Shown here: positions 17,685-62,049 of the stretch, piece by piece | How the letters are laid out: each line of letters begins with the position of its first letter | How positions within the stretch are numbered: position 1 is the first letter of the stretch | Source: Ulota crispa | Lineage: Eukaryota; Streptophyta; Bryopsida; Orthotrichales; Orthotrichaceae | Direction of reading: 5' to 3' | DNA: 64,000 bases | NCBI GenBank assembly: GCA_963920765.1 | Contig: OY987250.1 | Location: 17,600,409-17,664,408 of the forward strand | Program-made: the position numbers and the translations under genes | Notes under the pieces: generated by a model | Told to the model about the DNA's origin: nothing | Seen by the model: the letters and a program-made list of their open reading frames with translations, nothing else | The model's database searches: none

Positions 17685-17688
17685 TTAA

Positions 17689-18332
17689 CCCCTCACTGCC
17701 CAAGGGGCCCAAACTGGGCCCCTTTGAATTTTATTCAAAGATTTGTAACATTTTTTCAAGATTTTTTTTAGTGATTATTATTATTTTTAAATTCATATTG
17801 AAGTCTAGTTTTAGCATCAAGAGTTTGATTTTGAAAATGAATTAAAATAATTTCTCTATTCAAGATTTTGTGCAAGGGTGTCCATTGCAAATCTTCACTT
17901 TCTAGTGTTGAAGGATCATGGAAATGAGCCTCAAGTACACTAGAACTTGAAGAAAAAATCACATTAAAAATTCAATTCAAAAAATTGTAGAATAGATTTT
18001 GAGAAGCCGTAAATTGATTGGGGTTATGCATGTTATACTTTACATACTCATATTTTTTTGGTAACCTCAATTTTAGGTTTGAGATGAAAATTGAAGATTG
18101 AAAGACTTCAAATCACTTTTGCAATTTTAACACCCTCATGGTCAAACATTATAATCTTTCAAGCTATAAATGATATTGTTGTGATTTCCTTTCCTATGTG
18201 ATTTATAACATGTCTATTTTGAATTTGTATAGTTACCTTTAAAAAAAATTGAAAAGATTGATCAAAATGCCAACATTTGTTCACTTTCAAGCAAATTTTG
18301 AGATACTCAAAAATATCATGGGCGGTGAGGGG
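17689..18332 (+). mobile_element. Family C TTAA-flanked element, copy 1
   Basis: TTAA at 17685-17688 is followed by CCCCTCACTGCCCAAGGGG. The right end is GGGCGGTGAGGGG followed by CTAA (decayed TTAA). The body blocks CAAGATTTTGTGCAAGGG, GAAATGAGCCTCAAGTAC and CACTTTCAAGCAAATTTTGA are shared with copies at 21749, 53702 and 55527. Its length is 644 bp and it has no transposase. Confidence 0.8.
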
Positions 18333-18566
18333 CTAAGATGCAAACTCATTTCTGCAAACACAACTTTAAACTAAAATTTATCTTAGGAGGTTTTTTCGTA
18401 TATCTGCTTTAATAATTCTTCTAAATTGCAAATTCTACCAATGTTAGGCTAGACTGCTATATGATACACTTGCCCAAAAGTATTTCAAATATAAAATTAC
18501 AAACCATATTAAAAATCAATCAACCCAACACGGGCTGGTTGGCGACACGGGCTGGTTGACAATCAG

Positions 18567-18894
18567 TAAGGTAGGAACACTCATAAGCGTTAGTGTAAGG
18601 GTTTTGAACACGATTACTATTAATAAACATCTAGTAAATTATAAGATTTTATTAGCAACAAAAAAATAATTAGTTTGCACTTTTGAATGTATTATTTGGA
18701 TATTGTGACAATAAGTTGTGAGTTTTTAAAGAGCAAATTGCCATTGTACCCATAACCAACATTAAGGTTTCATGTTCACATGTTGTACATTCTTGTAATT
18801 ACATCTATTTACTTCTACAAACTTTCCAAGATTTTAGAGGTAACGGTTATGGGGACACTAACACTTATGGGTGTTCTTACCTTAAGTGTTAAAC
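18567..18894 (+). mobile_element. Family G TIR element, copy 2
   Basis: TAAGGTAGGAACACTCATAA on the left faces CTTATGGGTGTTCTTACCTTA on the right. The interior matches the other family G copies, including GGTTTCATGTTCACATGTTG. It is non-coding. Confidence 0.75.
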
Positions 18895-20003
18895 CCCAAG
18901 TTTTCTAGCTAAGGTAGACAAACCCATATCAAGGTTTGGGGTACCTCTTGGTTTTGGAAAATTCCAAAAAAAAATCAATAAGGTTAGCTTTTCAACAACC
19001 TATCATGAAAAGTAATTTTTGTGAAAAGGGCAAAGCTGCAACTCATAGGGTCTCTGTAAGCAACTCTAGACTAACCTTGAAACTGCTTGGATGTGTTTCT
19101 ATAATGGCACTTGACGGTCCCAATCCCAATACTCCCAAAGCAGCTTAGCAACTATTATGTGGCAAGATTTGCTTGAGCAAGCAATGTTCATTGCTCCACT
19201 TTGGATTCATTAGTGGACAATGAACACCTCAAAAATAGGGTGCAAAATTAGAGAGCAGTTGAGAATGGGTGTTTCTACATTACTAAAAAAAATCATTGTT
19301 GCAAGTGAAAATGCGCCATGTATGGTGTCAGAGTTCATCCGGACTGTTATGAATAGCCGCATGGTCATAGGGTTAGATATTATGAGTTTCATCAAAAACC
19401 AGTCAAGGTCCGGGAGATATTTGAGTTTTTTCAGCTGATTTCCTTTTATTTCCCGTGTTAAACCGGTTTATCAAGGAACTAATTTGGCTATTTTCTCTAT
19501 TTCATACTATGAATAAAGATTGTAAACCAATTTTCAATTGACTTTAATAAATTGCAATTGCAAATGGTTTTTTCTCATTTTAACTGGCTAGCTTTTAACT
19601 AGTTGTCATTACTTCCTGTACTATAGAGACCACCATTACACTATGCTCATATTGATATTTAATGTTGGTAACACTAGTTACAAAGTTCCACAACATTATT
19701 AGTGTTATTGACATGGCACTACATGTCAAGATAAACATTATTTGTCAATTAAATTTCCAACTAAAATTGTAAATTAATACCGCAATAGTTTAGCATGCAT
19801 TAAAGAAGTTTTCAACATCAACACTAATTATCAAAATGAAGATCAGCTATAAGTTAAATGAGAATTAGAGTGAACTTTATGACAAGGTAAATAACAATAA
19901 CTAACAAAACACTAAACTTTTTTATCATTTTAGGTCTTTTCAAATATTAGGTTTATAAGCAAGTGTTCCAAGAAATTCAAATAGGACCAAGGAAATCTTT
20001 CAA
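18895..20003. other. Intergenic DNA, no gene seen
   Basis: AT-rich sequence. 19395-19620 is rich in ACCGGTTT/AACTGGC-like motifs resembling the hAT-like module at 24311. 19655-19800 shares blocks, inverted, with 11390-11500. No gene was recognised. Confidence 0.4.
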
Positions 20004-20882
20004 CACCTAAAGGACCACGGCCTTTATTTTGTCAAAAGACACTCATAACTGCCACTTCTATGGCAAAGAGTAAAAAGTTTGAAAATTGGTCTTTTGCATT
20101 TCTAACCATAGGATCTTGTACTAGACTAGTATAAAAACATGTTGTACAAAATTCAAGAACTTTGACCGCATAGATTGGAAGATATATGCATTCAAAATGT
20201 AAAAAAACAAGGATTTTTGCACCCTGCATGACTAGATTATTTAACTATGAACTTTTGAACTTAAATTTCTTGCACCACATAGTTTGGAACTTTATTTTTT
20301 TGTGGTGGGAAGTTGAGTTGGGAATCTTGGGAAAAAATTTATAAAAAAACTTGATTTTCATTCCATAAAAAACATTAGGTAGAAGAAAGTATGAAATTGA
20401 ACAAAAACTTAAATTGTTAGTAACCATGCAATGGAATTGAAAAGCAATAATCCCAATGGTAAGATTGTTCTAGACTGCAAACTTCATCCTTTCTAACAAT
20501 TTTTTTTGTTTATAAGTTATTTTTTCAAGAAGATGCTTGAATTGCCCAAAAAGCAAGATCGTCCATAACTTTCTCATAACTAGTCCAAATGGAATGAATA
20601 AAAGTTGTAGATGTAGACAAAGATATACTCTATGAGAAAAAATAAATTAAAAAAAATTCAAGTTTTGTTAAAAAAAAATTGCTGCCCGGACTCCCCAAAT
20701 TTGTGCTTATTTGGGCATAACTTTTGCTTCGTGGCATGGATTGGAAGAAAAAGCATATTCCCCAAAAGTTAATGTGTCTTCCAATTTTCAAAAGAATTCA
20801 AAAAATCAGGATAAAAATTGAGGCCGTAGATACTTGCTCAAAATCCTATTTGTCCCTCGTAGGAACAATGGTCCTTTAGGGG
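20004..20882 (-). mobile_element. Family A TTAA-flanked element, copy 1
   Basis: The left end CACCTAAAGGACCACGGCC follows TCAA (decayed TTAA). The right end TGGTCCTTTAGGGG precedes TTAA (20883-20886). The whole element is the inverse of 25261-26202, sharing for example TTTTGTCAAAAGACACTCA and TTGTCCATAACTTTCTCATA-type blocks. It is 879 bp and non-coding. Confidence 0.8.
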
Positions 20883-20886
20883 TTAA

Positions 20887-21744: not shown

Positions 21745-21748
21745 TTAA

Positions 21749-22397
21749 CCCCTCTGACGCCCAAGGGGCTCAAATTGCACCCCTCTCAATTTCATTCAGA
21801 GATGGGCAACGTTTGCTCAAGATTTTTTTTTAGTGGTTATTATTATTTTAATTTCTCATTGAAGTCTCAATTTAGCATCAAAAGTCTGATTTTGAAAATG
21901 AATTACTGTGATTTGTGTATTCAAGATTTTGTGTGCAAGGATGTTCATCGCAAATCTTCATTGTTTAGTTTTGAAGGCTCTTGGAAATGAGCCTCAAGTA
22001 CATTAGAACTTGGAGAAAAGATCACATTAAAATTTTAATTTAAAAAATTGTAGAATAGATTTTGAGAAGTTGTAAATTGATTGGGGTTGTGCATGTTATA
22101 CTTTACATACTCATATTTTTTTGGTACTTTCAATTTTAGGTTTGAGATGCAAAAAGAGGATTGAAAGACTTCAAATCACTTTTGTAGTTTTAACACCCTC
22201 ATAATCAAACATTATAATTTTTCAATCCATAAATGATTTTGTTGTGATTTCTTTTCCTATGTGATCTATAACATGTCTACTTTGAATTTGTACGGTTGCA
22301 CTTCAAAGAAAACTAATCAAGTTGATCATAATGCCAACATTTTGTTCACTTTCAAGCAAATTTTGAGATACCCAAAAATACTAGGGACATTGAGGAG
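21749..22397 (+). mobile_element. Family C TTAA-flanked element, copy 2
   Basis: TTAA 21745-21748, then CCCCTCTGACGCCCAAGGGG. The right end is GGGACATTGAGGAG followed by TTAA 22398-22401. The body is collinear with 17689-18332. It is 649 bp and non-coding. Confidence 0.8.
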
Positions 22398-22401
22398 TTA
22401 A

Positions 22402-22877: not shown

Positions 22878-22880
22878 TAA

Positions 22881-24158
22881 GAAGAAGCATTTATGTTACT
22901 AGAAAAAATTCCTGAAGTCCTTATTAAACCATGAAGGACCAAGCGTTTGTTTTACGGACACTTGTGAACTCGGGTAAGGTCATGATCTATGATTTCATTG
23001 GATGTTCTTAAAACTGTTACACATGGTGCAAATATGTATTTTTCAAGTGGAAATGTAAATTTTTCCCCAATTGGATGCCCGATTCAAAAATTATGCTGGC
23101 CAAAAATTAAGGCAGTTTGAGTAGTTTTGGCATCTTTGGAGAATCTTATGCTAAAACTCTCATCATCTTTTGAAATTTGGCATGTATGTAACTAAAAAAA
23201 CATAATGTACAATTGTAAAAAAAATAAAAATGAACTCTCACATCACATTTTGAAGGGAACCAAATTTTGTTAACCATGTTTGGGCAGTTTCAAGAAAAAA
23301 CATCTTCTCCTAAATTCAAGCCTTATGATTTTGCTATTTATAAATTCAAAGTTTTTGGAATTTTTTTTCATATTTCAAATGTTTGTCTCTAAATTTCTGC
23401 CATTCCAATTTCAAATAAATGACTTCCTCATTGCACAAGAAATTATGAAAAAATGACTAGCGTATTGCCAATTCACTTAACCTCATTGCATTGCAAGGTG
23501 ATTTAGAATAAGATAAATTCTATATTTGCATGAATGAACCTAGCATCATATACTTATGAATGGTCAAAAACCTCAATTTTGTGTAGAGCAAAGTTTAAGT
23601 CTATGATTGTTCAAATTCTATTGACCTTGATGTTTTACAAGAATAAAAAAATTTGATTTTCTCACTTCAAACGTTATAATCTTTCAATCCATGCGGTCAA
23701 ATAGGCTCAAGCTTTTAGATAAATATTTTACCATACTTTTGAACCGCTGAAATTCCCAAACAAAAATTCAATTTTCATTGTTGATTAATATACCAAGAAA
23801 ATGCAGTTTTTGATAATAGGGGTAGTCACGGTTGAGTTTGAGCATTCTCAATCTTCACGGAAAACTAATGTGCCGGGTTGTCTGCGACTCACGCAAGGCT
23901 AGTTCCATGAAGATTGAGAAAAAAAATTCTCCTCCCCTAAGCGTGGAGAAATGGCTTGAGAATATTATTTGCATGAGAACTCTTACCATGGTCCTTCTAT
24001 TTACTTGCTCGTGAATTGCTTTTCACCCTTACTTTTTTTGCTCCTCCAATTGGTGGCCGTGTTGCCTTCCTCTAAGTAAAACATTCTCCATTCTTCATTC
24101 TTCATTCTCCATCACTCACAAAAGGGGTGTCACACCTCCTTCCATGAAGAAGTGCTAA
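22881..24158. other. Intergenic DNA, no gene seen
   Basis: AT-rich sequence with only short open frames. Nothing recognised. Confidence 0.4.
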
Positions 24159-24641
24159 CACCATATTAGGTAAATTGGGAAAAACAGTACTTTTTGGGAC
24201 TTTTGAAGGTTTTAGGTGATCACCTAAAGCCAAGCTTAGCTTTTTTTGGGTACACGTGTTGTTACCTCAGAGGAGGAATTTGTGAGGGAAAAAATCTTAG
24301 TGGCTTAGACCAATGTGCGGGGAGATTTTGAGCTTCTTTGGCAAAAGCCTACATTTCTCATTTTCATCCGGTTTTTTGAGTGGATGCACTGGCTAATCCC
24401 TATATACTTACTCTATAAGTAGAAATTTTCCAAAAGTTTAATCGGTTTTTAGCTGGTTGATGTAGGTTTCAACCGGTTTTTTCACATTTCATTCGGCTAA
24501 ATTTCTATTGTTTTTTGGCTCTCCTTGTACATTGGCTTAGACTAAATCTGATACCTTCAAATCTGGTTTAAGGTGACTTCTCTAAATCCAGGTGACATAC
24601 AAATTGGGACCCCCCGTTTTCCCAATTTACCTAATATGGTG
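24159..24641. mobile_element. Family N TIR element carrying a nested hAT-like MITE
   Basis: It starts CACCATATTAGGTAAATTGG and ends CCAATTTACCTAATATGGTG. The same ends bound the 245-bp copy at 37571-37815. The extra length here is due mainly to the nested element at 24311-24534. No coding capacity. Confidence 0.8.
24311..24534. mobile_element. hAT-like MITE with 8-bp target duplication
   Basis: GCTTAGAC occurs directly on both sides (24303-24310 and 24535-24542). The element runs from CAATGTGCGGGGAG to CTCCTTGTACATTG, with short imperfect TIRs. An 8-bp duplication plus CA(A/G)TG-type ends is characteristic of hAT elements. It is 224 bp, so non-autonomous. Confidence 0.75.
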
Positions 24642-24737
24642 TTTGCTTCCATTGACTCCTACATTCACTCAACCATTTCTTAATCTTCACGGAAATCTCA
24701 ATCTCAACTCAACCATGACTACCCCTAATATTTCTAG

Positions 24738-25080
24738 AAAAAATCCTTTGATCCTTTAGGGGTTAAGGTAGGAACACCCATAAGTGTCAGTGTCCCCGTA
24801 ACCGTCACCTCTGAAATCTTGGAAAATCTGTGGAAGTGAATAGATGTAATGAAAAGGATGTACAACACGTGAACATGAAATCGTAAAAGTGATTATGGGT
24901 GCAATGGCAGTTTGCTCTTTAAAACTCACAGCTTATTCTCTCAGTATCCAAATAATACATTCAAAAGTGCAAACTCATTCTTATATGTTTCTAATAAGAT
25001 CTTATAATTTACTAATTGTGTATTAATAGTCATCATGTTCAAAACCCTTAGTTTGACGTTCATGGGTGCTCCTACCTTAA
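24738..25080 (+). mobile_element. Family G copy 3 abutting a family B end
   Basis: 24738-24772 is a right-end fragment of a TTAA element (GATCCTTTAGGGG). Its TTAA (24773-24776) is directly followed by the family G end GGTAGGAACACCCATAAG. The matching right end CATGGGTGCTCCTACC is followed by TTAA at 25077-25080. The family G interior is in the usual order. Confidence 0.65.
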
Positions 25081-25491
25081 CCCTTAAGCGCTCCATCGAC
25101 AGTATACTGTTGATGGGGCCCACAACTTCATCTCATTTAAAAAAAATTGTAGAGTGAAAACAGCCATGGTTGGGCCTCATCATTAGAGAATGTAGTCCTT
25201 TTCAAATCCTATGGTCACTTTTTTTTGGATGTAATTTTTCCAAGCTGTGGTGGCCATTAACCCCTAAAGGACCATTGTCCCTATGGGGGACAAATGGGAT
25301 TTCGGGCAGGTACCTACGGCCTCAATTTTTGTCCTAATTTTTTGAAACCTTTTTTGAAGATAGAAAAACACATTAGCTTTTGAGGAATATAGTTTTTATT
25401 CCAAGTTGATGCCAAGGAGCAAAAATTATGCCCAAATAAGCACAAATTTGGGGACCAGGGGTAGCAAAAAAAACTTCTTATAAAAATTTGA

Positions 25492-25532
<41 letters not shown>

Positions 25533-26252
25533 CTTATAGATTATATCTTTGTCTACATCTGAAGCTATGATTCATTCCATTGGGACTAGTTATGAGAAAG
25601 TTATGGACAATCTTGTTTTTTGGGCAACTCAAGCATCTTCTTGAAAAAATAACTTATAAACTTCATTTTTGAATGCAGGTTTAACATTTTTTCAAAAAAT
25701 TTTGTTTGAGAGGGTGAAGTTTGCTTTCTAGAACAATCTCACCATTGGGATTATTGCATTTCACTTCCATTGCAAGGTTATAAGCAATTTAAGTTTTTGT
25801 TCAATCTCATACCTTCTTCTACCTAATGTTTTTTTTAAAGTATGGAAATTAAGTATTTAATAAAAAAAAATTCCCAACATTCCCAACTCAACTTCCCACC
25901 ATGCAAAAATAGAATTCCAAACTCCATGGTTCAAAATATTTAAGTTAAAAATGTTCAAAGTTAAAAAATCTAGTCAAGCAAGGTGCAAGAAAAGATGTTT
26001 TTTACACTTTAAATGCATATATCTTCCAATTTGTGCGGTCAAAGTTCTTGAGTTTTGTATGACACATTCTTATAGTAGTCTAGCACAAGATCCTACGGTC
26101 AGATATGCAAAATGCCTAATTTTCAAACCTTTTTATTCTTTGCCATAGAAATGGCAATTTTGAGTGTCTTTTGACAAAATAAAGGCCATGGTCCTTTAGA
26201 GGTTAAACCCCCATTTTCTCCTAAATCCAAAATAACTTTGGGCGCTCAAGGG
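25081..26252 (+). mobile_element. Family D-type element split by a family A insertion
   Basis: The left part 25081-25256 starts CCCTTAAGCGCTCC after TTAA. The right part 26207-26252 ends GGGCGCTCAAGGG before TTAA (26253-26256). Together they are about 222 bp, close to the 239-bp family D copy at 55284. The family A element 25261-26202 sits between them with TTAA on each side, as expected for insertion into an internal TTAA. Confidence 0.6.
25261..26202 (+). mobile_element. Family A TTAA-flanked element, copy 2
   Basis: TTAA 25257-25260, then CCCCTAAAGGACCATTGTCC. The right end is GGCCATGGTCCTTTAGAGG, then TTAA 26203-26206. It is collinear (inverted) with 20004-20882. A 39-base T run (25494-25532) accounts for much of its extra length. 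No transposase. Confidence 0.85.
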
Positions 26253-26256
26253 TTAA

Positions 26257-28061: not shown

Positions 28062-28140
28062 TAAGTTACAATTTCCATGCAGCCAAGGTGCCAAAACATA
28101 TCGTCAATTCAAAATAAGCATAGCTCAATGCCACATTTAA

Positions 28141-28891
28141 CCCCTAAGCGTCCATGCCGTTTTTTCCAAAATTAGGGTTTTGGGAAACCTACAACTTTGA
28201 TTTATTGTATCTCAATCTGCTGGATGATTCACAAAAAATGACCATTGAAAATAGTGGAACACCTAATTAGGAAATGGCTTGCAAATTTTGGGAACAATTG
28301 ACTGTGGGAGATGAGAGATTATAACATTTGAGTAAACAACATGTGATGGCAAAATATCAATTTTTGGTAGGTAGTTGCTATTTTATGATTTTTACAAAAT
28401 TCTATAAGCCCCTTATTTATCTCAAATTTTGTGAGCAACAAGATTAGATGTGAATGCACACACTTGTAAATTTATTGAAGATTGCACTTCTTTTTATGTC
28501 AAGTTTTAGGGCTTCAAATTGCTATTGCACAAAAAATGATGACAAGCATAGTCGGTGATAGTTGCCATAATAAGGATCTAGAACATGCTTGAACCTGTGC
28601 CAACAAATTTCCCACCACCACAAAGCACATGCAAGGAAGCTTGCAATAATTATTGATGAATTGTAGCTTGTAAAACAATGCTTACTACCATGTCCCATAA
28701 AGTGCTTCACCCAATTAAGACTCATGAGGGGCACTTGTATTTTTCTTGCCTTGCCATTACTCCACTTGCATGGGCCACCTGAATACCTTGATAATTGTAA
28801 TTTATAGCAAGGTCAAAAAATTAGATCAATACCTCAAACATGTATGTGAAATCATGTGAGGACCATTTTGGTCCTCTCGGGCGTTTAGGGG
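28141..28891 (+). mobile_element. Family E TTAA-flanked element
   Basis: TTAA 28137-28140, then CCCCTAAGCGTCCATGCC. The right end is TCGGGCGTTTAGGGG, then TTAA 28892-28895. It is 751 bp with no transposase. The interior is unlike families A to C. Confidence 0.75.
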
Positions 28892-29026
28892 TTAACTAAA
28901 GATGTATTGTGCATATAATTATGAACTTCATATGTCCCTAAACATTAAAGATTTCATAATTTTTTATATATTCTTCCCTAGATTTTGCATGTTTTTCAAT
29001 TTGGACATATTTCTTGATGTTTTCTT

Positions 29027-31661: not shown

Positions 31662-31665
31662 TTAA

Positions 31666-32528
31666 CCCCTAAAGGACCATTGTTCCCTTCGGGAATAATT
31701 GGGATTTCAGGCATGTACCTATGGCTAAACCACTTTGTGTGATTTTTTGAAACTTTTACTGAAGGTGAGGAATTCAAAAATCTACATGTGCATCTAATTT
31801 TTTCTTCACTCTGACATTTATTGAAGAAGTTATGCATGAAAATTTAGAAAATGCTACTCCTCGGGCAACCAAAAACTTCTTTGAAAATTTCAATTTTTCA
31901 AATAAAAATCTAATATAGGTTCTTTAGACTTATATAAACGTGGGGAGCTTTGAATCATTCAATAGATATAAGAATAACCGCCACATATTAACGGCCATTT
32001 AATCTTCTTGGAGCAACACCCAACTACCCAACTAATGAAACCAAGCCTATTACTAGTATAGATTATGACCGTTGGGATTTGCATTTTTCATTTTAATAAT
32101 TAAATTCTTAACAATTTAGTAATTTGACTCATTCTCTACTTCTTTTTACTTACTATTTTTTCCCATGTGTTGTATAGTTCCAATTGATTTGAAAATTCTC
32201 CCACACATACCTAACTTGGTCCTCTACATGAATAAAATGAACTACAACTTTGCATAGAGTAGTTATTTTGCTCTAAGAGTGGTCAAATTCTTTTGAAATT
32301 TTTGGGCTGCAGGAAAAAAAGCTTTTTTCCTCACTTTGAAAGTAAATTTCTCACTCAATCTTCTCTGGATTGAGCTCATTTTTTTACCACAAGTACCTCT
32401 TGTTGTCTACTGTAAGATCTTATGGTTGGATTTTCTTTTAAAAAAAATTTCCTACCATTCCACTTGCTCCCCCAAAAGTGATGTTTTTCTGCGTTTTTCA
32501 CAGAAAAAATGGCTTGGTTCTTTAGGGG
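31666..32528 (+). mobile_element. Family B TTAA-flanked element
   Basis: TTAA 31662-31665, then CCCCTAAAGGACCATTGTTC. The right end is GCTTGGTTCTTTAGGGG, then TTAA 32529-32532. The inner family blocks GTGTGATTTTTTGAAAC and CATACCTAACTTGGTC are present. 863 bp, non-coding. Confidence 0.8.
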
Positions 32529-32532
32529 TTAA

Positions 32533-33291
32533 TCCCCTAAAGGCCCAATTGTCCCCTTGAGGGACAAATGGATTTTGGGCATGTATTACAACTAAACTAG
32601 TTTGTGTGATTTTTTGAAACTTTTATTGAAGGTGGGAATTCCAAGATCTACGTGGGCATCTAATTTTTTCATCATTCCAATAGTTGATGAAGAATTTATC
32701 AAGATTTTTTTGAAACTAGGTAAGAAGGGGCAATTTGGGCAGGGGCCGTAGGGCCCCTCCTTTGTAAATGGGTGTTGACTCTAAAGAGGGTCAGCCCTTC
32801 CGGGCACAAGGTGTGGACACTTGGGCAAAGAGGAGTGGAGTGGAAGGTGCCCATCTTGGCAAACTCTCAAACCTCCATTCCTTTTGCCCCTTGTAAAAAT
32901 TTTTGTTGTAGTTTTTTGAGTTTAAGGTTTGAGTATTTAGTTTTTGATCAATTTTTTTCCAAGTTGTGGTGGGCGAAGAGCCCTCTCCTACATAGAAAAC
33001 TTAAATCCTGACTTTGCATAGAGCAATTTTTTTGATATAAGAGCGGTCAAAGGCTTTTAAATTTTTAGGTAGCAAGGAGAAATTCTTTTCTTTTCACTTC
33101 AAATTTCAATACTTCATTCCTCTGCTTCTAGTATGAGCTGATTTTTTCCCACTAGCACCTCCCATAATCCAAGGCACAATCCTACCATTAGAATTCCCAA
33201 AAATAAAAAAATCTATACTTTTCTACTCATTCCCTCAAAAGTGGCAGTTTTTTGTGATTTTCACAGAAAAAAGAGCTTGGGCCTTTGGGGG
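32533..33291 (+). mobile_element. Family B TTAA-flanked element, abutting the previous one
   Basis: It shares the TTAA 32529-32532 with its neighbour, then reads TCCCCTAAAGGCCCAATTG. It ends GCTTGGGCCTTTGGGGG, then TTAA (33292-33295). Same orientation and same body as the neighbour but with an internal deletion (759 bp). Confidence 0.8.
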
Positions 33292-33576
33292 TTAAAACAT
33301 TGATGCCTAAGAACCGATTTTGGCTTTTTTATTTGTTAGGCATGTTGTTATAAAGCCAAACAAATTTGTCAAATTTGTTTTCTTGATCTTTTGCCTGATG
33401 TACAATTTAAAGAAGTAGTTGTGGAGGATTGCAACATAAATTGTACTTTATATTTCGACTCAATAAACACAATACATACAGTACAGTACAGCTATCTTTT
33501 CTTTATGTGAGGTGCTTTCTTGATCTAAACCTAAATAATTATTGTTTAGCAAAGTCTTTTGATCAAGTCATATTAA

Positions 33577-34496
33577 CCCCTGCCGAGCTGTCCCCCGGGG
33601 GACAGTTTTTCATTTCGGGCCTGTACCTATAGCTAATTTACTTTTTGTGATTTTTTAAAACTTTTATTGAAAGTGGGGAATTCTAAGATCTATCTGGGAA
33701 TTTTTTTTTTGTCATTTTGACATTTGACGAAGAAGTTATGCAAGAATTTCTGCTATCCGAGGGAGGGAGGGCAATTTGGGCAGCCCAAAAACTTCTTAAA
33801 AAGTTGAAATTTCTAAAAATAGAAATCTGAAATTGGTTCTTTAGATCTTTTTCATATGTGGGAAGCTTTGAATCATTCAACTTCAATCAATGAGATGAAG
33901 GTAATGAGATGTTTTAGTTTGTGGGCAGTTATGGATTCTTTACTCTAAATTAAACTTTGAAGTCCTTTATTTTCCATAATTTTTAATATTTTGGAAAAAA
34001 AACTAAACCGAAGGAAGTAGATTGTTTATCACAACATATGGGATTTTCATTTTTTCATTTTAATAATGAAACTCTTAACAATTTAGTAATTTGACTCATT
34101 CTCTACTTCTTTTTACTTATTGTTTTCCCCCATGTGTTGTATAGTTCCAATTGATTTGAAAATTCTCCCACACATACCTAACTTGGTTTGTTACATGGAG
34201 AAAATAAACCTCAATTTTGTGTAGAGTAATTTTTTCATGTAAGTGTAGACAAAGGCTTCTGAAGTTTTTTGGATAGCTCAAAAAAAAACTTTTTTTTTCA
34301 CTTTAGATGTAAATATCTCCCTCCTCTCCATCTAGAATGACCTGATCTTTTCCCACAAGTACCTCTTCTAGTTTAAGGCAAGATCCTATGATTGGATTTG
34401 CAAAACAAACTTTATTTCCTACTTTTCTACTCATTCCCCCCAAAGTGACAATTAACAGTGATTTTCACTAGAGAAAACTGCTTGGGCCTTTAGGGG
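33577..34496 (+). mobile_element. Family B TTAA-flanked element
   Basis: TTAA 33573-33576, then CCCCTGCCGAGCTGTCCCC. The right end is GCTTGGGCCTTTAGGGG followed by TTGT, a decayed TTAA. The body is collinear with the other family B copies. 920 bp, non-coding. Confidence 0.75.
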
Positions 34497-34499
34497 TTG

Positions 34500-35082
34500 T
34501 CATATTAAAAACCTCAAAGTGATAAATCGTACTAATTCAACTATATTCAAACTTGGAATTGTGAAGAAAAAGAACACTCTCAAACTTCGCACTTACAGAT
34601 TCTTATAAAAATCTACAAAAATTCAGAAGGAAAATAAAACATGGCCTTGTGTGGGACCATGTACCTCTTGTGTACATTTTTCAAAGGGGATCCAACATGA
34701 GATGGCTATGGAATGTGGCTGTGGAATGGCGACCGGCCAAATCCTAAGCTAAACTTTTTACGAAGAGGACGAGAGGTTTCTAGGTGGTGGACTTCTGCCC
34801 CTCTTCCACGAATCCAGGGCGTCGGCGGAGTCAAAACCTCCGGGCCACTGGTGTCAATGCACCGGAGTTGTCAAGCTTCGTTTTCTTCGACCCAGCAGCA
34901 CCGATCAATGCCGACGCCGCAAATTCTTCGTCGTCAGGGGCTAGAAAAGTTTGACTCACGTTCGGAGGTGGAGAAACGCGTCCACCTCCACAGCTCCACT
35001 GCCACCTCTGCCGTCTGGAGTGGACTCTGGAGTTTGCACATCTCTCCGTCCACAGTTCCATTATTAGAGATGAAGCCCCTTT
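34500..35082. other. GC-rich island of unknown nature
   Basis: 34700-35075 is markedly GC-richer than its surroundings and open in more than one frame (153 codons on plus, 34713-35174; 76 on minus, 35061-34831). No protein family was recognised. It could be a decayed gene fragment or an unannotated exon. Confidence 0.35.
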
Positions 35083-39749: not shown

Positions 39750-39753
39750 TTAA

Positions 39754-40053: not shown

Positions 40054-40057
40054 TTAA

Positions 40058-48446: not shown

Positions 48447-48451
48447 TTTAA

Positions 48452-48990
48452 CCCCTCAAGGACCAAGCTCTTTTTTTCGTTGAAATCACTGAAAACTACC
48501 CCTTTTGGGGGAATTAGTAGAAAGATATGATTATTTTTTTTATTTGGAAAATCCAACCATAGGATCTTGCTCTAGATTATGGGAGGAACTTGTTGGAAAA
48601 ATATTAGGTCATTTCAGATGGTGAGGAGTGAGATATCAACATTTGATGTAAAGAAAAAAGTTCCTTTCCTTGCTGCCCATAAATTTAGAACCATTTCACC
48701 ACTCAAATAGCAAAAAATTGCTCAACTCAAAGTTGAGGTTTATTTTCTCCATGTAGAAGACCAAGTTAATTCTGTGTGCAAGAATTTCCAAATGAATTTG
48801 AGATGTAAACTATACTTTAAAAAAAAACTGGATGCTAGAAGGTCCTGAAATTTGCAATTACACTATGCAAGGTTGGAGGCTTTTTGTAAAATTCAGAAAC
48901 TTGATTTACATTAATCTAAAAAGTAAAAAGTAAGGGCTCTTAGCCCATGACAATTTGGGAAAATCAAGAATTAAAAAAAAAAATACACAA
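48452..48990 (-). mobile_element. Truncated family B element
   Basis: TTAA 48448-48451, then CCCCTCAAGGACCAAGCTC. The body follows family B but stops before the distal end. The next TTAA (48996-48999) belongs to the neighbouring full copy. Confidence 0.65.
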
Positions 48991-48999
48991 ACCCCTTAA

Positions 49000-49944
49000 C
49001 CCCTAAAGGACCAAGCCCTTTTTCTTTGAAAATCGCTGAAAATTGCCACTTTTGGGGGAATGAGTAGAAAGGTAGGAAAAAAAGTTTTTTTGAAAATTCA
49101 ACCATAAGATCTTGCCCTAGACAACGTGAGGTACTTGTGGGAAAAATTTCAGCTCATTCCAAAAGTAGAGGAGTGAGATGTTGACATTTGAAGTGAAAAA
49201 ATAACTTTTTTTCCCTACTGCCCAAAAATTTCAGAAGCCTTTGACAACTCCTATATCAAAAAAATTGCTCAACGCAAAGTTGAGGTTTATTATTCCCATG
49301 TGGTAGATAAAGTTAGGTAAATGTGGGAGAATTTTCAAATGAATTGGAGGTGTGGATCATACTTTGTAAAATCATGCAATGCCGTAAGGCCATGAAATTT
49401 GCATATACACTAGGCAAAGTTGGAGGATTTATGTAAAATTGAGAAATCTCAATTACTTTGATCCAAATGGTAAAAACCAGTAAACCTTAGTCTATTACAA
49501 CTTAGAAAAAAAAAGTAAAAAAAAACACAAAGAGCTCAAAAAAGGAAAGCAACAAATTTTACAAGAGGCAAAAAAGAATGGAGGTTTGGGAGTCCCATAC
49601 CTACCCGCAAACTAAAACTTCACATAAATTTCATCTCATTAATAAAAATTGAATGATTTAAAGATTCTCACATTGTATAAGTTGAAAGAACCAATTTCAG
49701 ATTTTTATTTTAAAAAATGCAATTTTGATTTATTTTTTTGGGTTGCCTGCCTTCCCCTTTTTCAGAAATTCATGCATAACTTCTTCAATAAATGTTGGAA
49801 TGAATAAAAAAATTAGATGCGCACGTAGATCTTTGAATTGCCCACCTTCAATAAAAGTTTCAAAACATCACAAAAAGTAGATTAGTTATAAGTACATGCC
49901 CAAAATCCATTTGTCCCCCAAGGGGGCAATTAGTCCTTTAGGAG
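49000..49944 (-). mobile_element. Family B TTAA-flanked element
   Basis: TTAA 48996-48999, then CCCCTAAAGGACCAAGCCC-type. It ends GCAATTAGTCCTTTAGGAG followed by CTAA (decayed TTAA). 945 bp. Its sequence is nearly identical, inverted, to 51629-52574. Confidence 0.85.
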
Positions 49945-49948
49945 CTAA

Positions 49949-50323
49949 GAAAAGAAAATGTTAAATTTTACAAGGGGCAAAAGGAATGGAGGATTGGGAG
50001 TCCCGCAAGACAAGCTCCTTCCTCTCCACTCCCCTTTACCCAAGTATCCACACCTTGTGCCCGGAAGGGCTGACCCTCTTTAAAATCAACACCCACTTAC
50101 AAAGAAGAGGACCTGCTTGAATTGCTCCTCTTCTCCTAATTTTGATAAATTCTTGAATAACTTCTTCAATAAATGTTGAAATAAAGAAAAAATTAGATGC
50201 ACTTTCAGATTTTTGAATTCTTCATCTTCCATTAAAATTTCTATAAATCCTACAAAGTAGTTTAGCTATAAACACATGCCCAAAATCCTTTTGTCCCTCG
50301 AGGGAGCAATGATCCTTTACAGG
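49949..50323 (-). mobile_element. Truncated family B element
   Basis: Only the outer ~370 bp is present, from AAATTTTACAAGGGGCAAA to GATCCTTTACAGG, then TTAA at 50324-50327. Its last part is also repeated after the assembly gap. Confidence 0.65.
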
Positions 50324-50706
50324 TTAATTGACAAAAGCAAGTGCTACACAAAACAAAGCCTCACGTTGAGTTGTTGGGTGTTTTTGTCACTCTTGGTCGT
50401 TGGCACCCTCGGAAACATGGGACATTTTAGGATTTTTCATTGGCCAAACGACGTGCATCCTAGATTGCAAGCAAGTAAGGGGAAAAAATGTGTAAAATCA
50501 TCTAATTGTGCACATTCAAGTGTAAAATTGGTTTCTCTTTATAAATTTCATCCGAAATCTAGCACATGTGATATGTCTTGGCAAAGTGTTCGTCAATTTT
50601 ATCCACTTTTCACCCAAATTTTGTAGGATAAAGATTGCAAGTGTCAAAATGAGGTAAGGTAGCCGTACCCTATTTGGACCATGAACTTAATGTGGTCCAT
50701 ATGTAC
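50179..50706 (+). repeat. 528-bp direct duplicate, left copy
   Basis: Identical by eye to 50907-51434 (offset 728) and ends exactly where the N run begins. It includes an open frame of 116 codons at 50276 that reappears at 51004 and is not recognised. This is probably one locus represented twice. Confidence 0.9.
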
Positions 50707-51598: not shown

Positions 51599-51628
51599 AT
51601 CTCAAGATGATGGCAAATTTTGTTTTAA

Positions 51629-52574
51629 CTCCTAAAGGACCAATTGTCCCTTTGGGGGACAAATGGATTTTGGGCATGTACTTATAACTAATCTACTTTT
51701 TGTGATGTTTTGAAACTTTTATTGAAGGTGGGCAATTCAAAGATCTACGTGCGCATCTAATTTTTTTATTCATTCCAACATTTATTGAAGAAGTTATGCA
51801 TGAATTTCTGAAAAAGGGGAAGGCAGGCAACCCAAAAAAATAAATCAAAATTGCATTTTTTAAAATAAAAATCTGAAATTGGTTCTTTCAACTTATACAA
51901 TGTGAGAATCTTTAAATCATTCAATTTTTATTAATGAGATGAAGTTTATGTGAAGTTTTAGTTTGCGGGTAGGTATGGGACTCCCAAACCTCCATTCTTT
52001 TTTGCCTCTTGTAAAATTTGTTGCTTTCCTTTTTTGAGCTCTTTGTGTTTTTTTTTACTTTTTTTTTCTAAGTTGTAATAGACTAAGGTTTACTGGTTTT
52101 TACCATTTGGATCAAAGTAATTGAGATTTCTCAATTTTACATAAATCCTCCAACTTTGCCTAGTGTATATGCAAATTTCATGGCCTTACGGCATTGCATG
52201 ATTTTACAAAGTATGATCCACACCTCCAATTCATTTGAAAATTCTCCCACATTTACCTAACTTTATCTACCACATGGGAATAATAAACCTCAACTTTGCG
52301 TTGAGCAATTTTTTTGATATAGGAGTTGTCAAAGGCTTCTGAAATTTTTGGGCAGTAGGGAAAAAAAGTTATTTTTTCACTTCAAATGTCAACATCTCAC
52401 TCCTCTACTTTTGGAATGAGCTGAAATTTTTCCCACAAGTACCTCACGTTGTCTAGGGCAAGATCTTATGGTTGAATTTTCAAAAAAACTTTTTTTCCTA
52501 CCTTTCTACTCATTCCCCCAAAAGTGGCAATTTTCAGCGATTTTCAAAGAAAAAAGGGCTTGGTCCTTTAGGGG
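51629..52574 (+). mobile_element. Family B TTAA-flanked element
   Basis: TTAA 51625-51628, then CTCCTAAAGGACCAATTGTC. It ends GGGCTTGGTCCTTTAGGGG, then TTAA 52575-52578. Near-identical inverse of 49000-49944. 946 bp and non-coding. Confidence 0.85.
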
Positions 52575-52578
52575 TTAA

Positions 52579-53697: not shown

Positions 53698-53701
53698 TTA
53701 A

Positions 53702-54345
53702 CCCCTCAACGTCCGCAGGGCGGTTTTTACGCCTGTCTGAACTTTGTTTAAGGATGTCAAAAGTTTTTTCAAGATTTTTTTTGTGGTTATTATTATATCT
53801 AAATTTTTGTTGAAGTCTAGTTTCAACATAAAGAGTTTGATTTTGAAAATGTGTTAACATGATTTGTCTATTCAAGATTTTGTGCAAGGGTGTCCATTGT
53901 AAATCTCCACTTTCTAGTGTTGAAGGCTCTTGGAAATGAGCCTCAAGTACACTAGAACTTGGAGAAAAAATTGTATTAAAAATTCAATTTAAAAAATTGT
54001 AAAATAGATTTTGAGAAGCCGTAAATTGATTGGGGTTATGCATGTTGTACTTTACATACTCATATTTTTTTGGTACCCTCAGTTTTAGGTTTGAGATGCA
54101 AAAAGAGGATTGAAAGACTTCAAATCACTTTCACAATTTTAACACCCTCATGATCAAACATTATAATCTTTCAATCCATAAGTAAAATAGTTGTGATTTC
54201 TTTTTGTATACAATCTATAACATGTCTACTTTGAATTTGTACGGATACATTTCAAAAAAATTGATAAGATTGATCAAAATGCCAGCATTTTGTTCACTTT
54301 CAAGCAAATTCTGAGATACTCCAAAATTCCAGGGGCGTCGAGGGG
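53702..54345 (+). mobile_element. Family C element, chain member 1
   Basis: TTAA 53698-53701, then CCCCTCAACGTCCGC. It ends GGGGCGTCGAGGGG, then TTAA 54346-54349. The body is collinear with 17689-18332. 644 bp. Confidence 0.85.
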
Positions 54346-54349
54346 TTAA

Positions 54350-55279
54350 CCCCTAAAGGACCAAATGTCTCCTTGGGGGAAAAATGGACCTTGGGCATGT
54401 ACCTATGACTAAACTAGTTTTTATAAAATTTTGAAACTTTTGAGGCTGGTGGGGAATTCAAAGAGATATGTGCACATCTAATTTTTTTTCTTCATTTTGA
54501 AATTTATTGAAGAAGTTATGCATGAATTTCTAAAAAACGGGGAGGGCGGGCATTCCGGGCAGCCCAAAAAACTTCTTTAAAATTTGCACTTAAAAAAATA
54601 AAAATCTGAAATTGATTCTTAAGATTTTTATATATGTGGAAAGCTTTGAATCATTCAATTTTGATTGATGAGTGAGAAGTTTTAATTTGCAAGCAGGTAT
54701 GGAACTCCCAAACCTCCATTCCTTTTGCCCCTTGTTAAATTTGGTTTTTTAATTACTTTTTTGAGTTTTTTTTCCAAGTTGTAGTAGACTAAGATTCCTT
54801 GGTTTTCACCATTTGGATCAAAGTAACTCATATTTCTCAAATTTACAGAAATCCTCCTATCTTGCCTAGTGTATATGCAAATTTCATGACCTTACAACAT
54901 TGCAATATTTATAAAGTATGATTCACACCTCCAATTCATGTGAAAATTCTCCCCACACATACCTAACTTGGTCTTTTACATGGAAGATATAAACCTCAAC
55001 TTTGCGTAGAGCAACTTTTTGGATATTGGAGTGATCAAAGGCTTTTGAAATTTTTGGGCAACAGGGAAAAAAACTTTTTTTGCATTTTGGATGTCAATAT
55101 CTCAATCCTTTACATCTAGAATGAGCTGGTTTTCTTCCACAAGTACCTCCCATAGTCTAGGGCAAGATCTTATTGATGGATTTTCAAAATAACTTTCTTT
55201 CTTACCGTTATACTCATTCTTCCAAAAGTGGCAATTTTCAATGATTTTCACAGAAAAAATGGGCTTGGTCCTTTAGGGG
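54350..55279 (+). mobile_element. Family B element, chain member 2
   Basis: It shares TTAA 54346-54349 with member 1, then reads CCCCTAAAGGACCAAATGTC. It ends GGGCTTGGTCCTTTAGGGG before TTAA 55280-55283. 930 bp. Confidence 0.85.
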
Positions 55280-55283
55280 TTAA

Positions 55284-55522
55284 CCCCTGAGCGCTAGCAT
55301 AATTTCACTCAAATCCAAACCCTTTGGAACTCATTCCAATCAAACTATCACCTAAAAGAGATCCATAAAAATTGACCGTATTGATTGGTAGTGAACATAG
55401 GCTTGGAGCTCTAAGGAAAAGGACACGTCCTTTCACCATACCATTGAAAAGATTATAACGGTCAAATAAGGAAATTTTTCAAAAATGAGAGGCCCTATTT
55501 TGGCCCCTTGGGCGCTCAAGGG
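55284..55522 (+). mobile_element. Family D element, chain member 3
   Basis: CCCCTGAGCGCTAGC at the left and GGGCGCTCAAGGG at the right, between the shared TTAA sites 55280-55283 and 55523-55526. 239 bp. Confidence 0.8.
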
Positions 55523-55526
55523 TTAA

Positions 55527-56172
55527 CCCCTAAATGCCCAAGGCCCTTTTTGAGCTTCTAGGAATTTGCTCTAAACTAAACAAAAAGCCAACATTTTGAT
55601 AAGTTTTATTATTATTTTTTAAATTGTAACCGTACAAATTCAAACTAGATATGTTAGAAACCACATAGGAAAAGAAAACACAACAATACCATTTATGGAT
55701 TGAAAGATTATAATGTTTGATCAAGAGGGTGTTAAAATTGCAAAAATGACTTCAAGTCTTTCAATCCTCTCTTCAAGTGTCAAATCTAAAATGTTGGTCA
55801 CCAAAAAAATATGGGGTTGAAGGACATAACATGTATAACTCCAATCCATTTACAAATTTTTAAAATCTCTTTTACAAATTTTTTAAGTGAATTTCTAGTG
55901 TGAATTTTTCTCCAAGATCTAGTGTATTTGAGGCTCATTTTTATGAGCTCTCAACACTAAAAAAGTCAAGATTGCAATGGACACCCTTGCACAAAATCTT
56001 GAACAGAAAATTTGCAATCAATAATTTTCAAAATTGAGTTTTTGATGCTAAAACTAGACTTCAAAAAGAATAAATTTTAATTACTAAATATTAAAAATAG
56101 TAGCTTAGTTAGGTTTTATTGAACTCCAAAATATTGTTTGCACCAAAATGTGGTGCCTTGGGCATTTAGGGG
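55527..56172 (-). mobile_element. Family C element, chain member 4, inverted
   Basis: CCCCTAAATGCCCAAGGCCC on the left and GGTGCCTTGGGCATTTAGGGG-type on the right form a good TIR pair. The body is the inverse of 53702-54345. 646 bp. Confidence 0.85.
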
Positions 56173-56176
56173 TTAA

Positions 56177-56425
56177 CCCCTAAGCAATAAGCGCCTAGTA
56201 AACAATATACTGTCTCTCCAAAAGCTAGGTCAACACAAGTGTGACTGATGTTAATTCATTGCTTCTTTGGTCAAACCACCTCCAATCAAGCCCATCACAA
56301 TGGAGATACTTTCTACTAACAATTTGTGTGGCCAAATCTTGTAGATTGTATTTTTCAATACACAAGGGGTACTTTGATTGCAAGTAGGTTAGGTTTTCTT
56401 GGTTTCAAGTCTAGGCGCTTAGGAG
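56177..56425. mobile_element. Family F TTAA-flanked element, chain member 5
   Basis: CCCCTAAGCAATAAGCGCC after TTAA 56173-56176; right end TCTAGGCGCTTAGGAG before TTAA 56426-56429. 249 bp. Confidence 0.75.
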
Positions 56426-56519
56426 TTAATTGCAATTTGCAAATACTTCTGAGGATATCTACTAAGAATCTCTCACATGGGCATGTTGCATGAAGAGTTG
56501 AGGACATTAGAGTTATCCT

Positions 56520-56663: not shown

Positions 56664-56697
56664 GCATCGTTATCCGGGTTCTAAGTTATGAGATTAA

Positions 56698-57009: not shown

Positions 57010-57054
57010 TAAGTTCTGGAAGCCTGTATGAAGGATATGTTGGGATTGTGTAAG

Positions 57055-58914: not shown

Positions 58915-59023
58915 TGTAGTATCTTTGAGCAGCTATTTTAGAAACGGGTTTGACAAATATTTGTTTAGCAACATTCATTTAAAGAAAAAAGCTGACTATT
59001 CTATCCCCAAAACAAACAAAAAA

Positions 59024-59900
59024 TGTATAGTGGGATAGAACAAGTTTTATTCCACCCCATTCTATTGTTCAAAGGACTTAGCATTTTATAGAATGCAATT
59101 GGCTTTTTTGTATCTTGTATCACAAAGCTTTAATTCCTACACAATCTTAGTCAAGCATACCAAATTTGAGTTCCAAAAAACCAAAACCCTATATTTAGTG
59201 AATTATTTTAGATGAAATTCATGGATTTATACAATAGTTAATTAAATAACATTGGTGATGAATTTTTGAGATTTGATTGCATGGATATATAGTAAACATC
59301 CATAAGCACATCTCTTTTTTTAACAAGCATCTTAAAAAGGTTTCAAATTTCCCTCTATAGAGATTTTAATGTTGGGGTGATCATGACCAAATTTAGTAAA
59401 ATATATTTATTTGTTTTTTAATTAGCTTTTGGCAGAATAATCAAATCATCATGCTCAAAGCTACAAACTTAATCATAATGTATGAGTCAATTAGCAAAAT
59501 CTAATTACCATAAAGAAATATCTATTTTACTAAATTTGGTTAAGATCACTTCAACATTGAAATCTCTATAAGGGGAATTTTGAGACTTTTGGGGGATTTT
59601 TATTTGAAGGACAAATGTGCATATGGATATTTTCTACATACCCATGCAATCAAATCTCAAAAATTCATCACCAATGTTTTTTAATCAATTATCATATAAA
59701 TCCGAGAATTTTATCTAAAATAATTCACCAAAATTAAAATTTTGGTTTTTTGGAACTCAAATTTGGTATGTTTGATTAAGGTTGTGTAAGTATTGAAAAT
59801 TAGTGATACAAGATACAAAAATCCAATTGCATTTTATAGAATGCTAAGTCCTTTGAACAGTAGAGTAGGGCGAACTAAAACTTATTCTACCCCACTGTAC
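59024..59900. mobile_element. Large foldback, family P, copy 2
   Basis: The arms mirror about a centre near 59460: GCATTTTATAGAATGCAATTG faces CAATTGCATTTTATAGAATGC-type, GATACAAGATACAAAAA faces TTTTTTGTATCTTGTATC, and CATCCATAAGCACATC faces the GTGCATATGGATA region. The outer ends are GTATAGTGGGATAGAAC and TTATTCTACCCCACTGTAC. About 877 bp and non-coding. Confidence 0.85.
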
Positions 59901-61493
59901 TTGTAAACTGTTGCATGGACCCAAAAGAAGTATGGTAGTCAAAGGCAACACTTCAGCATGTGATGGAAATCTTCAAATAAACTGTTAAATGAAATATGCG
60001 CATTGTACAACATGGGTAGCGTGTTACCTGTAAAAATTCGTGAGGACATATGCTAGTCAATGGGTTCAAAAGCTTTTCCTTTTTAACTTTGCAATGTGGG
60101 GAGTACGAAATGATTACTTGAAACATGGAATCTCAGTTTTTTTTCTTACCTCACCAATTTAAAAAGCATCTTCTACCACAACCTCTCATTGGAGTATGAG
60201 AATCCTTCTTGTTTGGGCCATGGGTTTGGATCCGGAAACATTTTTTTATTCAATCCAGCAATGCAGAAAGGACGGTTCACACTTCACACCACGATCCAAG
60301 CTGTTCAAATTTTCAAAGCTTGTTGGTTGTCATGTTGAAAATTGCATGGGACTTATAGCTTTACATCGTGTCCCATCACTCACATGTTCCATATCTCAAT
60401 TCACTCACAAACGCCAACACAACACTTATTTTAGAAAGTTTTGGCACCAAGGATGTGGAGTTTTGCAATCAAGCATAAAAAAAAGAACTTGCATTGAGAG
60501 CCAAGACTCCAAAATAAATGTATAAAATTTTCAAGCCTTTTTGTTTGACATTTCTTTTTGTCCATTCCAATTCAACAGACTTGGGGATGGTGTTGGATTG
60601 CTACATGTAGTCTTGTAAATGTGGGACATGGAATATAGTATGAAAACTGTCAAAGACCCAACTATCTCAAGTCCCACCAAATTTTGCAAAGCATTGTTGG
60701 TGGGAAGGCGAAAAAAAACAAAACTTATAACTTTGCATTGCATCCTAATTCCCAAGTTTCAAGCCTTAATTCAAGTAGAAATGCCTACGTGACATCACTT
60801 TTTTGGAAACACAGCACCAAACAAGTAGAACTTCTTTCCAAAAGTCAAGTCAATCAAAGATGAAGGGGACTCCTAAATTCGCAGCATACATACTCTTAAT
60901 ACAAAAGAGCTCAAGGTTTATCTTAGGTATACTTGTAATGAGTACTTTGAAAAAACATAATTCATGCAAAAAACACTCAAAAAATCAATTCAAAAGGAGG
61001 TTGTGCTTTAAAAAAATAAAAGATTCACGGGATGAAATGAAAAATAGGATAATCTTACCAAAATGACAGAGAAGTACCACTTATTTTGAAAGAAGTGTGA
61101 CAAAGGCTCAACCAAAGCACCTCATAGAATCCAAAAATACCCCCCTCTTATCCATGAAATTACAAAAAATTCTTTGAGATTAAAAAAGGATATGAAGAAT
61201 TGAATCTACACACTTTAAAAGGTGTATCAAGAATGGAATAGGATTCCCCTCACTCTGGTTTTCTCTTGAAAAAATTAAGTTAGAGATCCTTGTCTACGTC
61301 ATATTGCAACATGCAAATCTAAGGTGATTTTAATATGAAAATACACTAATACCAAAGTTTGTATTAATCGATTTTTTTTAAAATTTGAAAAGATGTTGCA
61401 ACTTTTGAGATTTTGAAATTAAATTTAAATAAATAGAAATAATTCAGATTAAGGATATTCTTGAATTGGTGTTTAAATGGTGCTTAAGGTAGG
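59901..61493. other. Intergenic DNA, no gene seen
   Basis: 60196-60760 has weak inverted similarity (TTGTTGGTTGTCATGTTG, GTGTCCCATCACTCACATG and their partners near 60600-60740), perhaps an old foldback. The open frames of 87-109 codons here are not recognised. Confidence 0.4.
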
Positions 61494-61803
61494 AAAATCC
61501 ATAAGCGTCAGTGTCCCATAATCGTCACCTTTGAAATCTTGGAAAATCTGTGAAAGTGAATAGATGTAATGACAAGGATGTACAACATGTGAACATGAAA
61601 TCTTAAAAGTGGTTATGGGTGCAATGGCAATTTGCTCTTTAAAAATTCACAACTTGTTCTCACAATATCCAAATAATACATTTGAATGTGCAAACTCTTT
61701 TTTTTTTCTGTTCCTACTAGGATCATATAATTTGCTAGTTGTTTATTAATAGTCATTGTGTTCAAAACCCTTAAATTGACGTTTATGGGTACTCCTACCT
61801 TAA
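61494..61803 (+). mobile_element. Family G TIR element, copy 4
   Basis: TTAAGGTAGGAAAATCCATAA on the left, TTATGGGTACTCCTACCTTAA-like on the right. The interior is collinear with 24773-25080. Its right TTAA (61800-61803) also starts the next element. Confidence 0.75.
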
Positions 61804-62037
61804 CCCATGAATGGCTTGAAAGCCCTTTGCGGCCGAATGTACAATCGTATGTATAAACATATTTGAGCTACTTTGAGGGCTTTCCAAGTTTTTTTATACA
61901 CCCACCATCACACAACCCTTCAATATATATGATTGTAACACTTAATTTCCAACTCACTTTTTAATATTGGTTACAACCATATTTGGTATCGTATCTCCAA
62001 AACCCAAATCTCCAAAGCCCAAGGGCTCTTCAGGGGT
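61804..62037. mobile_element. TTAA-flanked element related to family D
   Basis: CCCATGAATGGCTTGAAAG after TTAA; right end CCCAAGGGCTCTTCAGGGG followed by TTCA, a decayed TTAA. About 234 bp, non-coding. Confidence 0.6.
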
Positions 62038-62049
62038 TCATATGACAAC

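Follow-up and report, generated by a model that had tools for sequence, protein, structure and literature searches.

Transposons of the piggyBac superfamily are described mainly from animals, fungi and protists, and piggyBac is a workhorse of animal genome engineering. Here we report that a 64,000-nt stretch of the Ulota crispa genome (GCA_963920765.1, contig OY987250.1; C9:17600409-17664408 in our genome search), called the window throughout, carries 20 two-ended elements that are almost certainly non-autonomous members of this superfamily and have become fixed in the nuclear DNA of a land plant. The initial annotation of the window, made from its letters, had cautioned that piggyBac is not a usual component of such genomes. 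The accessible parts of two plant repeat tables agree with that caution in giving only trace entries, one for the fern Ceratopteris (1,230 elements, 122,417 bp in total; PMC6890710) and one for the angiosperm Stellaria (60 elements, 2,318 bp in total; PMC13180808). The caution is tempered by the accessible text of two further papers, one listing PiggyBac among plant superfamilies (PMC10794571) and the other, on animal piggyBac tips, stating in its abstract that piggyBac has been isolated from insects, fungi and plants (PMC10813416). The available portions of four moss papers (PMC9247546, PMC11704416, PMC9631980 and PMC7466625) contain zero occurrences of piggyBac, and that of PMC10619864 contains only the word "piggybacking". 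In the literature searched, which lay outside preprints and included few subscription papers, we found neither a paper devoted to native plant piggyBac nor a report of comparable piggyBac abundance in a land plant.

The element tips begin with CCC or CC[C/T]T, some having decayed to CTCC, CACC or ACCA. The word TTAACCC occurs 33 times on the two strands of the window, against a mean of 10.8 and a maximum of 19 in 100 dinucleotide shuffles. When up to three mismatches were allowed, TTAACCCCTAAAGGACC was found 26 times versus 0.17 expected, and a left tip with a facing right tip at 200-1300 bp was found nine times versus 0.23 (maximum 3) in 60 first-order Markov sequences. Tips and self-alignment together gave the 20 paired elements, which cover 14,655 bp, or 23% of the window and 33% of the 17685-62041 span. 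Thirty-five of their 40 ends read TTAA, a count partly selected on TTAA (the unselected count, given below, is 12 of 15), and the rest read TTAG (two ends), TCAA, ACAA and TGAA. The description of the elements as TTAA-bounded and CCC-starting is thus borne out, as is the estimate of at least 20, whereas the "six or so" families became about eight: A (four copies), B1 (two), B2, the main family (seven), D (three) and E, F, G and E21 (one each).

Family A elements are about 650 bp long and B2 elements 0.76-0.95 kb; overall the elements measure 0.24-0.95 kb, and more when nested. Copies of family A are 71-86% identical to each other and pairs of B2 copies 59-83%, with the exception of E13 and E15, which differ by four substitutions and one indel in 945 aligned bases (99.5% identity). 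As these two near-identical copies have different flanks, one movement was recent. The longest stop-to-stop frame within the elements encodes 96 aa. If nested copies are counted twice, 67 frames have at least 50 aa; Pfam recognized no transposase in ten frames chosen from these 67, all matches being below the curated cut-offs, which agrees with the earlier statement that the window holds no transposase. A scan of the window with Rfam gave no match at gathering scores, and the 18-mer tip was not found in viral contigs, a collection from which records near the window's genome were possibly excluded. The absence of a recognized transposase and the thousands of tips fit the class of miniature inverted-repeat transposable elements (MITEs), but families A and B measure 0.65-0.95 kb; of the label "piggyBac-like MITEs" the first half therefore holds and the second is loose.

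The accessible text of PMC7351741, on the piggyBac mechanism, describes a 19-bp palindromic internal repeat near the tip of the T. ni piggyBac. In the window the palindrome score near the tips averaged 4.9 over the 40 ends versus 3.8 in shuffles, many ends having none, and a score of at least 7 was reached by 4 of 40 ends, the corresponding rates being 1.25% in shuffles and 2.0% in random segments. The effect is modest across the 40 ends and lies mostly on one end. An idea of covariation was dropped on inspection of the B2 end alignment, with no formal count.

The assembly searched for transposases comprises 274.8 Mb in 157 contigs, of which ten measure 15.8-41.4 Mb and one more has 5.1 Mb or above. 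The piggyBac transposase model PF13843 (DDE_Tnp_1_7) gave at least 120 matches in the window's own genome, with a best E value of 1.3e-73 and matches on each of contigs C1-C11. The number is a lower bound because only 116 of 528 first-look candidates were scored. All listed matches lie above the curated cut-off and many span nearly all 349 positions of the model, and the same model had no match in 14 control genomes. Stops interrupt 110 of the 120 listed matches, the other 10 being without. Among the in-frame stops of the first 50 there are 104 TAG, 57 TGA and 25 TAA codons, a tally, uncontrolled for codon use, that suggests decay at methylated CAG (CHG) and CGA (CG) sites. A protein search with one transposase piece returned 130 matches, whose identities cluster near 68%, 48% and 38%, and hence several transposase lineages are present. 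The open frame of one locus, L010, matches the T. ni piggyBac (6x67, E 4e-20) and piggyBat (9c0f, E 6e-17) transposases, and its third catalytic aspartate is replaced by N. A frame in locus L015 (4324-5415) contains TIDE, TLDN and GVDVADQ, three aspartate motifs, plus a cysteine-rich tail. By comparison with the structure matches of L010, we take these motifs to be those of piggyBac.

Locus L023 holds a two-piece piggyBac gene (3750-4244 plus 4512-5441; C1:1180709-1182337) that has no stops and retains the DDD motifs, and most of its relatives near 68% identity carry stops. Its nearest downstream tip is 2 kb off and there is no upstream tip within 3.8 kb. It may be a domesticated gene or a younger copy.

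The connection between these transposases and the short families of the window was read in nine-kilobase stretches around 20 PF13843 matches. Loci L049 and L015 together form an 8.0-kb stretch (C7:11814404-11822436), running from TTAACCCCTAAAAGCCC to the mirror of TTAACCCCTAAAGGCCC, in which a transposase fragment lies between two B2-type ends. Identity to B2 is 87% at the left end (53 columns) and 84-86% at the right end (58-59 columns), in the same orientation, and over some 250 bp inside the right end there are further pieces, 71-82% identical, that stay collinear with B2. This is a longer DDE_Tnp_1_7 member sharing the element ends, of the kind that the initial annotation had proposed to look for, and together with the genomic PF13843 matches it supports the piggyBac assignment. 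Pairs of inward tips with 12-14 of 14 identities surround 5 of the 20 transposases (L011, L016, L017, L018 and L026) at distances of 5.0-5.7 kb. Tips of other families recur as well: those of L016 (CCCCTAAATGCCTAA) resemble family A and those of L014 (CCCCTGAGCGCCCC, a pair with 11 of 14 identities) resemble family D.

The target site was assessed by scanning the window for the tip sequence alone at up to one mismatch (n=15), so as not to select on TTAA. In 12 of these 15 matches to the terminal inverted repeat (TIR) alone, TTAA directly preceded the tip, and 13 of 15 retained the first T (P 2e-5 at a T frequency of 0.32). Eighteen B2 copies from beyond the window, which scored best among 9,742 candidates, had TTAA at 12 left ends and 17 right ends. 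Empty sites were sought by joining flanks. Of 20 joined flanks from the window, E13 alone was informative: it gave five matches of more than 100 bp, three of them without a gap at the junction, and these three carry a single TCAA. The joined flanks of E04, E08, E09, E18 and E19 matched only their own neighbors or copies at shared TTAA, and the remaining 14 had no spanning match. For 20 joined loci from the genome, spanning matches were obtained for five (L036, L032, L030, L038 and L045). The L036 site has one TTAA both in window 58913-58619 and in L028, the L032 site has one TTAA both in window 9867-10286 and in L047, and L030 is the E13 case again. The clean empty sites thus hold TTAA once, as TTAA duplication on insertion predicts.

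These data bear on other origins for the elements. Kolobok-type elements likewise belong to a TTAA-duplicating superfamily, and the accessible text of PMC9587614 reports them in a chlorophyte and in rhodophytes. That text gives Kolobok termini as 5'-RR...YY-3', whereas the tips described here are CC or nearly so, apart from decayed exceptions, and the transposase between the B2-type ends is DDE_Tnp_1_7 (Kolobok models were not searched in the genome). We regard a Kolobok origin as very improbable. Searches that used only piggyBac transposases, element DNA and tip patterns brought up no autonomous relative from a different class. The same low probability as for Kolobok is given to TA-target elements (Tc1/mariner, Stowaway-like) with tips of the form ACCCC...GGGGT that happen to prefer TTAA. 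At any single insertion TTAA read as T-TA-A gives identical letters, but 13 of the 15 TIR-only matches retain the first T, AGGTAGG repeats in the same window do vary at that base, and the transposase found is that of piggyBac.

PIF/Harbinger (Tourist-like) elements with 3-bp TTA or TAA duplications are brought to mind by the TAA-flanked elements with GRGCATCTCC tips in the same window. TTA on the left with TAA on the right is not a direct duplication, however; equal flanks require four bases and the clean empty sites carry TTAA once, so that this origin is less probable still. If the repeats were unrelated and TTAACCC stood beside them by chance in AT-rich DNA, about 11 occurrences would be expected in the window. 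As 33 are observed, genome tips number 31,318 versus 9 in the control and the families show internal homology, the probability of this explanation is negligible.

Several observations weigh against assigning the elements to piggyBac or against parts of that assignment. Transposition was observed in no case. A transposase stretch matching beyond the tip was recognized for B2 alone, and within the L049 plus L015 stretch lies another inward-facing tip (L015 1942), because of which the limits of that stretch are our reading; this tip probably closes a nested F-like copy, about 0.9 kb long, with its other tip at L015 1017. The pairing of tips around 5 of 20 transposases only modestly exceeds a swap control (mean 1.74, maximum 6, 500 shuffles), and pairing is weak evidence because tips of different families are alike; a further 5 of the 20 loci have no tip pair within 9 kb. 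The comparison of filled with empty sites, which the initial annotation had proposed for orthologous sites, gave one TTAA for the two genome copies, but the relatives of the E13 site read TCAA rather than TTAA, those of L038 have TTCAA, L045 is offset by one base, the L036 site has two weaker relatives with GCCAA and TAAAAA, and all empty sites are paralogous, none orthologous.

Such tips are abundant far beyond the window. The tip TTAACCCYTNANNGNCC occurs 31,318 times in the genome versus 9 in the control, and the exact tip TTAACCCCTAAAGGACCA 7,555 times versus 0. The window has 16 copies of TTAACCCYTNANNGNCC where the genome mean is 7.3 per 64 kb. Scaling from this one window gives, very roughly, 39,000 elements, 28.7 Mb and 10% of the genome. 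A search with E15 gave the 9,742 first-look candidates mentioned above, and the 40 that were scored are 86-100% identical to it over nearly full length. Elements also stand back to back. E16-E20 (53698-56429) form a row of five in which each neighboring pair has one common TTAA, and E08 and E09 form another pair. The 20 elements thus have five such junctions, where simulations that drew TTAA uniformly gave 0.99 (P 0.0017). Genome-wide, 2,017 of the 31,318 strict tips share their TTAA with a second CCC tip that points the other way. As the corresponding expectation, near 2%, is our own rough arithmetic, no chaining mechanism is claimed.

By analogy with known piggyBac chemistry, a DDD transposase would have bound the tips, and the element would have been excised via hairpin ends carrying TTAA overhangs, then inserted at a new TTAA. 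Short gene-less copies would have been moved in trans by such a TTAA-specific transposase and would have diverged after insertion. The border TTAA of older copies has often received new insertions, which has produced the back-to-back chains and may reflect a preference. On balance we lean, with odds somewhat better than even, toward a wider view in which piggyBac became a leading class of DNA transposon in some lineage of land plants, perhaps the mosses. Its short copies, tens of thousands in number, would then occupy about one tenth of the genome; its transposases would have diverged into many lineages, at least one movement (that of E13/E15) would be recent, and chains would have formed through preference for border TTAA.

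The individual elements are distributed as follows. All seven named as complete examples in the initial annotation proved to be ends of paired elements, each coordinate marking the first base after TTAA. The span of 17685-62041 given for them fits too, except that one truncated B2 copy found by self-alignment (1..676, minus strand), which served as an uninserted relative in the E13 empty-site comparison, lies outside it. Family A comprises the non-autonomous E01 (17685..18336, plus), with the TIR pair CCCCTCACTGCCCA/CCCCTCACCGCCCA, 86% identity to E03 and E16 and a right end reading TTAG inward; E03 (21745..22401, plus), supported by paired tips and family alignment; and E16 and E19 of the chain. 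The chain begins with E16 (53698..54349, plus; paired tips) and continues with E17 of family B2 (54346..55283, plus; paired tips and family alignment), E18 of family D (55280..55526, plus; paired tips), E19 (55523..56176, minus), whose tip CCCCTAAATGCCCAAG is close to the tip pair of the L016 transposase, and E20 of family G (56173..56429, plus), with TIR CCCCTAAGC/CTCCTAAGC. Family B1 is represented by E02 (20000..20886, minus), which has TIR CACCTAAAGGACC/CCCCTAAAGGACC, 85% identity to E06 and a left TTAA that is now TCAA, and by E06 (25257..26206, plus; paired tips and family alignment), nested within the family D element E05 (25077..26256, plus; TIR CCCTTAAGCGCTCC/CCCTTGAGCGCCCA), which it splits. 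The other D element, E11 (39750..40057, plus), has paired tips and is 86-90% identical to a copy in L016.

The remaining B2 elements include E08 (31662..32532, plus; paired tips and family alignment), E09 (32529..33295, plus; paired tips and family alignment), which has its TTAA in common with E08 and one extra T after the left TTAA, and E10 (33573..34500, plus; paired tips and family alignment), whose right TTAA has decayed to ACAA read inward. Despite the lost right TTAA, E10 is flanked on either side by the 9-mer TCATATTAA (33568-33576 and 34500-34508), which may be a repair scar or chance. E14 (48448..50327, minus; paired tips and family alignment) is an outer element split by E13 (48996..49948, minus), the element of the paralogous empty-site comparison and near-identical to E15 (51625..52578, plus), the genome-search query, which is supported by its genome copies. 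Families with one member are E, represented by E07 (28137..28895, plus; TIR CCCCTAAGCGTCC/CCCCTAAACGCCC), F, represented by E04 (22924..24766, plus), which has B-like tips at both ends, apparently holds another inserted repeat (24159-24641) and has F-like counterparts in stretches such as L015 and L024, and the further small family of E21 (61800..62040, plus), with paired tips, a right end reading TGAA and 79% identity to a copy in L021.

The window also contains other repeats. A family of about 320 bp with AGGTAGGAACACCCATAA tips is present at 7267-7579, 18569-18882, 24766-25077, 61487-61800 and 56660; two copies adjoin CCC elements at a common TTAA. It is flanked by TA, and as the base before the TA varies, this family is probably TA-targeting. 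TAA-flanked elements with tips near GRGCATCTCCACYAG (10847-11381, 40058-40474 and 56698-57009) are presumably PIF/Harbinger (Tourist-like) MITEs. A repeat with exact 21-bp inverted tips CACCATATTAGGTAAATTGGG lies at 24159-24641 and 37571-37815, and a tandem array at 6021-6700 has PNPGCAYTKPRVCIYQTPGVHI-type open frames in several reading frames, with inverted copies around it (5428-6915). Note that the 528 bases preceding a gap of 200 N at 50707-50906 (50179-50706) are repeated exactly after it (50907-51434). The gap therefore seems to mark overlapping contigs that were left unmerged, not a loss of sequence, and the repeat falsely duplicates one B2 end. The genes of the window encode two EF-hand (calmodulin-like) proteins, a class-V aminotransferase-like protein that we take to resemble a plant family, and pieces of a PARN-like ribonuclease of the CAF1 family; these gene families occur beyond plants too. 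SAM_LFY has six matches in the genome, one strong (E 1e-27) and five weak. To our knowledge LFY occurs only in land plants and the algae most closely related to them.

Now that one land plant is seen to have piggyBac ends by the tens of thousands, the spread of these transposons in plants, their origin (vertical or transferred) and their silencing become directly testable, and this plant may be a source of transposases suited to plant cells. Should plant repeat libraries contain little piggyBac, as the accessible parts of the two tables suggest, routine annotation would miss such elements.

The kind of element is already known; its scale in a land plant is the surprise. The closest counterparts are the coral CMITEs and AmiPB1-6 of Acropora as given in the accessible text of PMC2872659, which likewise have TTAA duplications and CCC tips of 13-14 bp and combine short non-coding elements with piggyBac transposases in the same genome; the left tip of E16 matches that of CMITE family III at 12 of 14 positions. 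According to the same text, CMITEs are animal elements of about 100 bp with internal regions common between families, whereas the elements of the window are plant elements of 0.24-0.95 kb whose families mostly have no such regions in common. With the T. ni piggyBac (6x67/6x68) and piggyBat (9c0f) the transposases share homology over much of the protein, the TTAA target, the DDD motifs and the cysteine-rich tail. They differ in that the paired-end stretches here are about 5-8 kb long, that there are several diverged lineages and that 110 of the 120 listed matches contain stops. The Ceratopteris and Stellaria tables, in their accessible parts, resemble the present case in placing the superfamily name in a land plant, but give no ends or transposases, whereas the genome of U. 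crispa has both complete elements and transposases.

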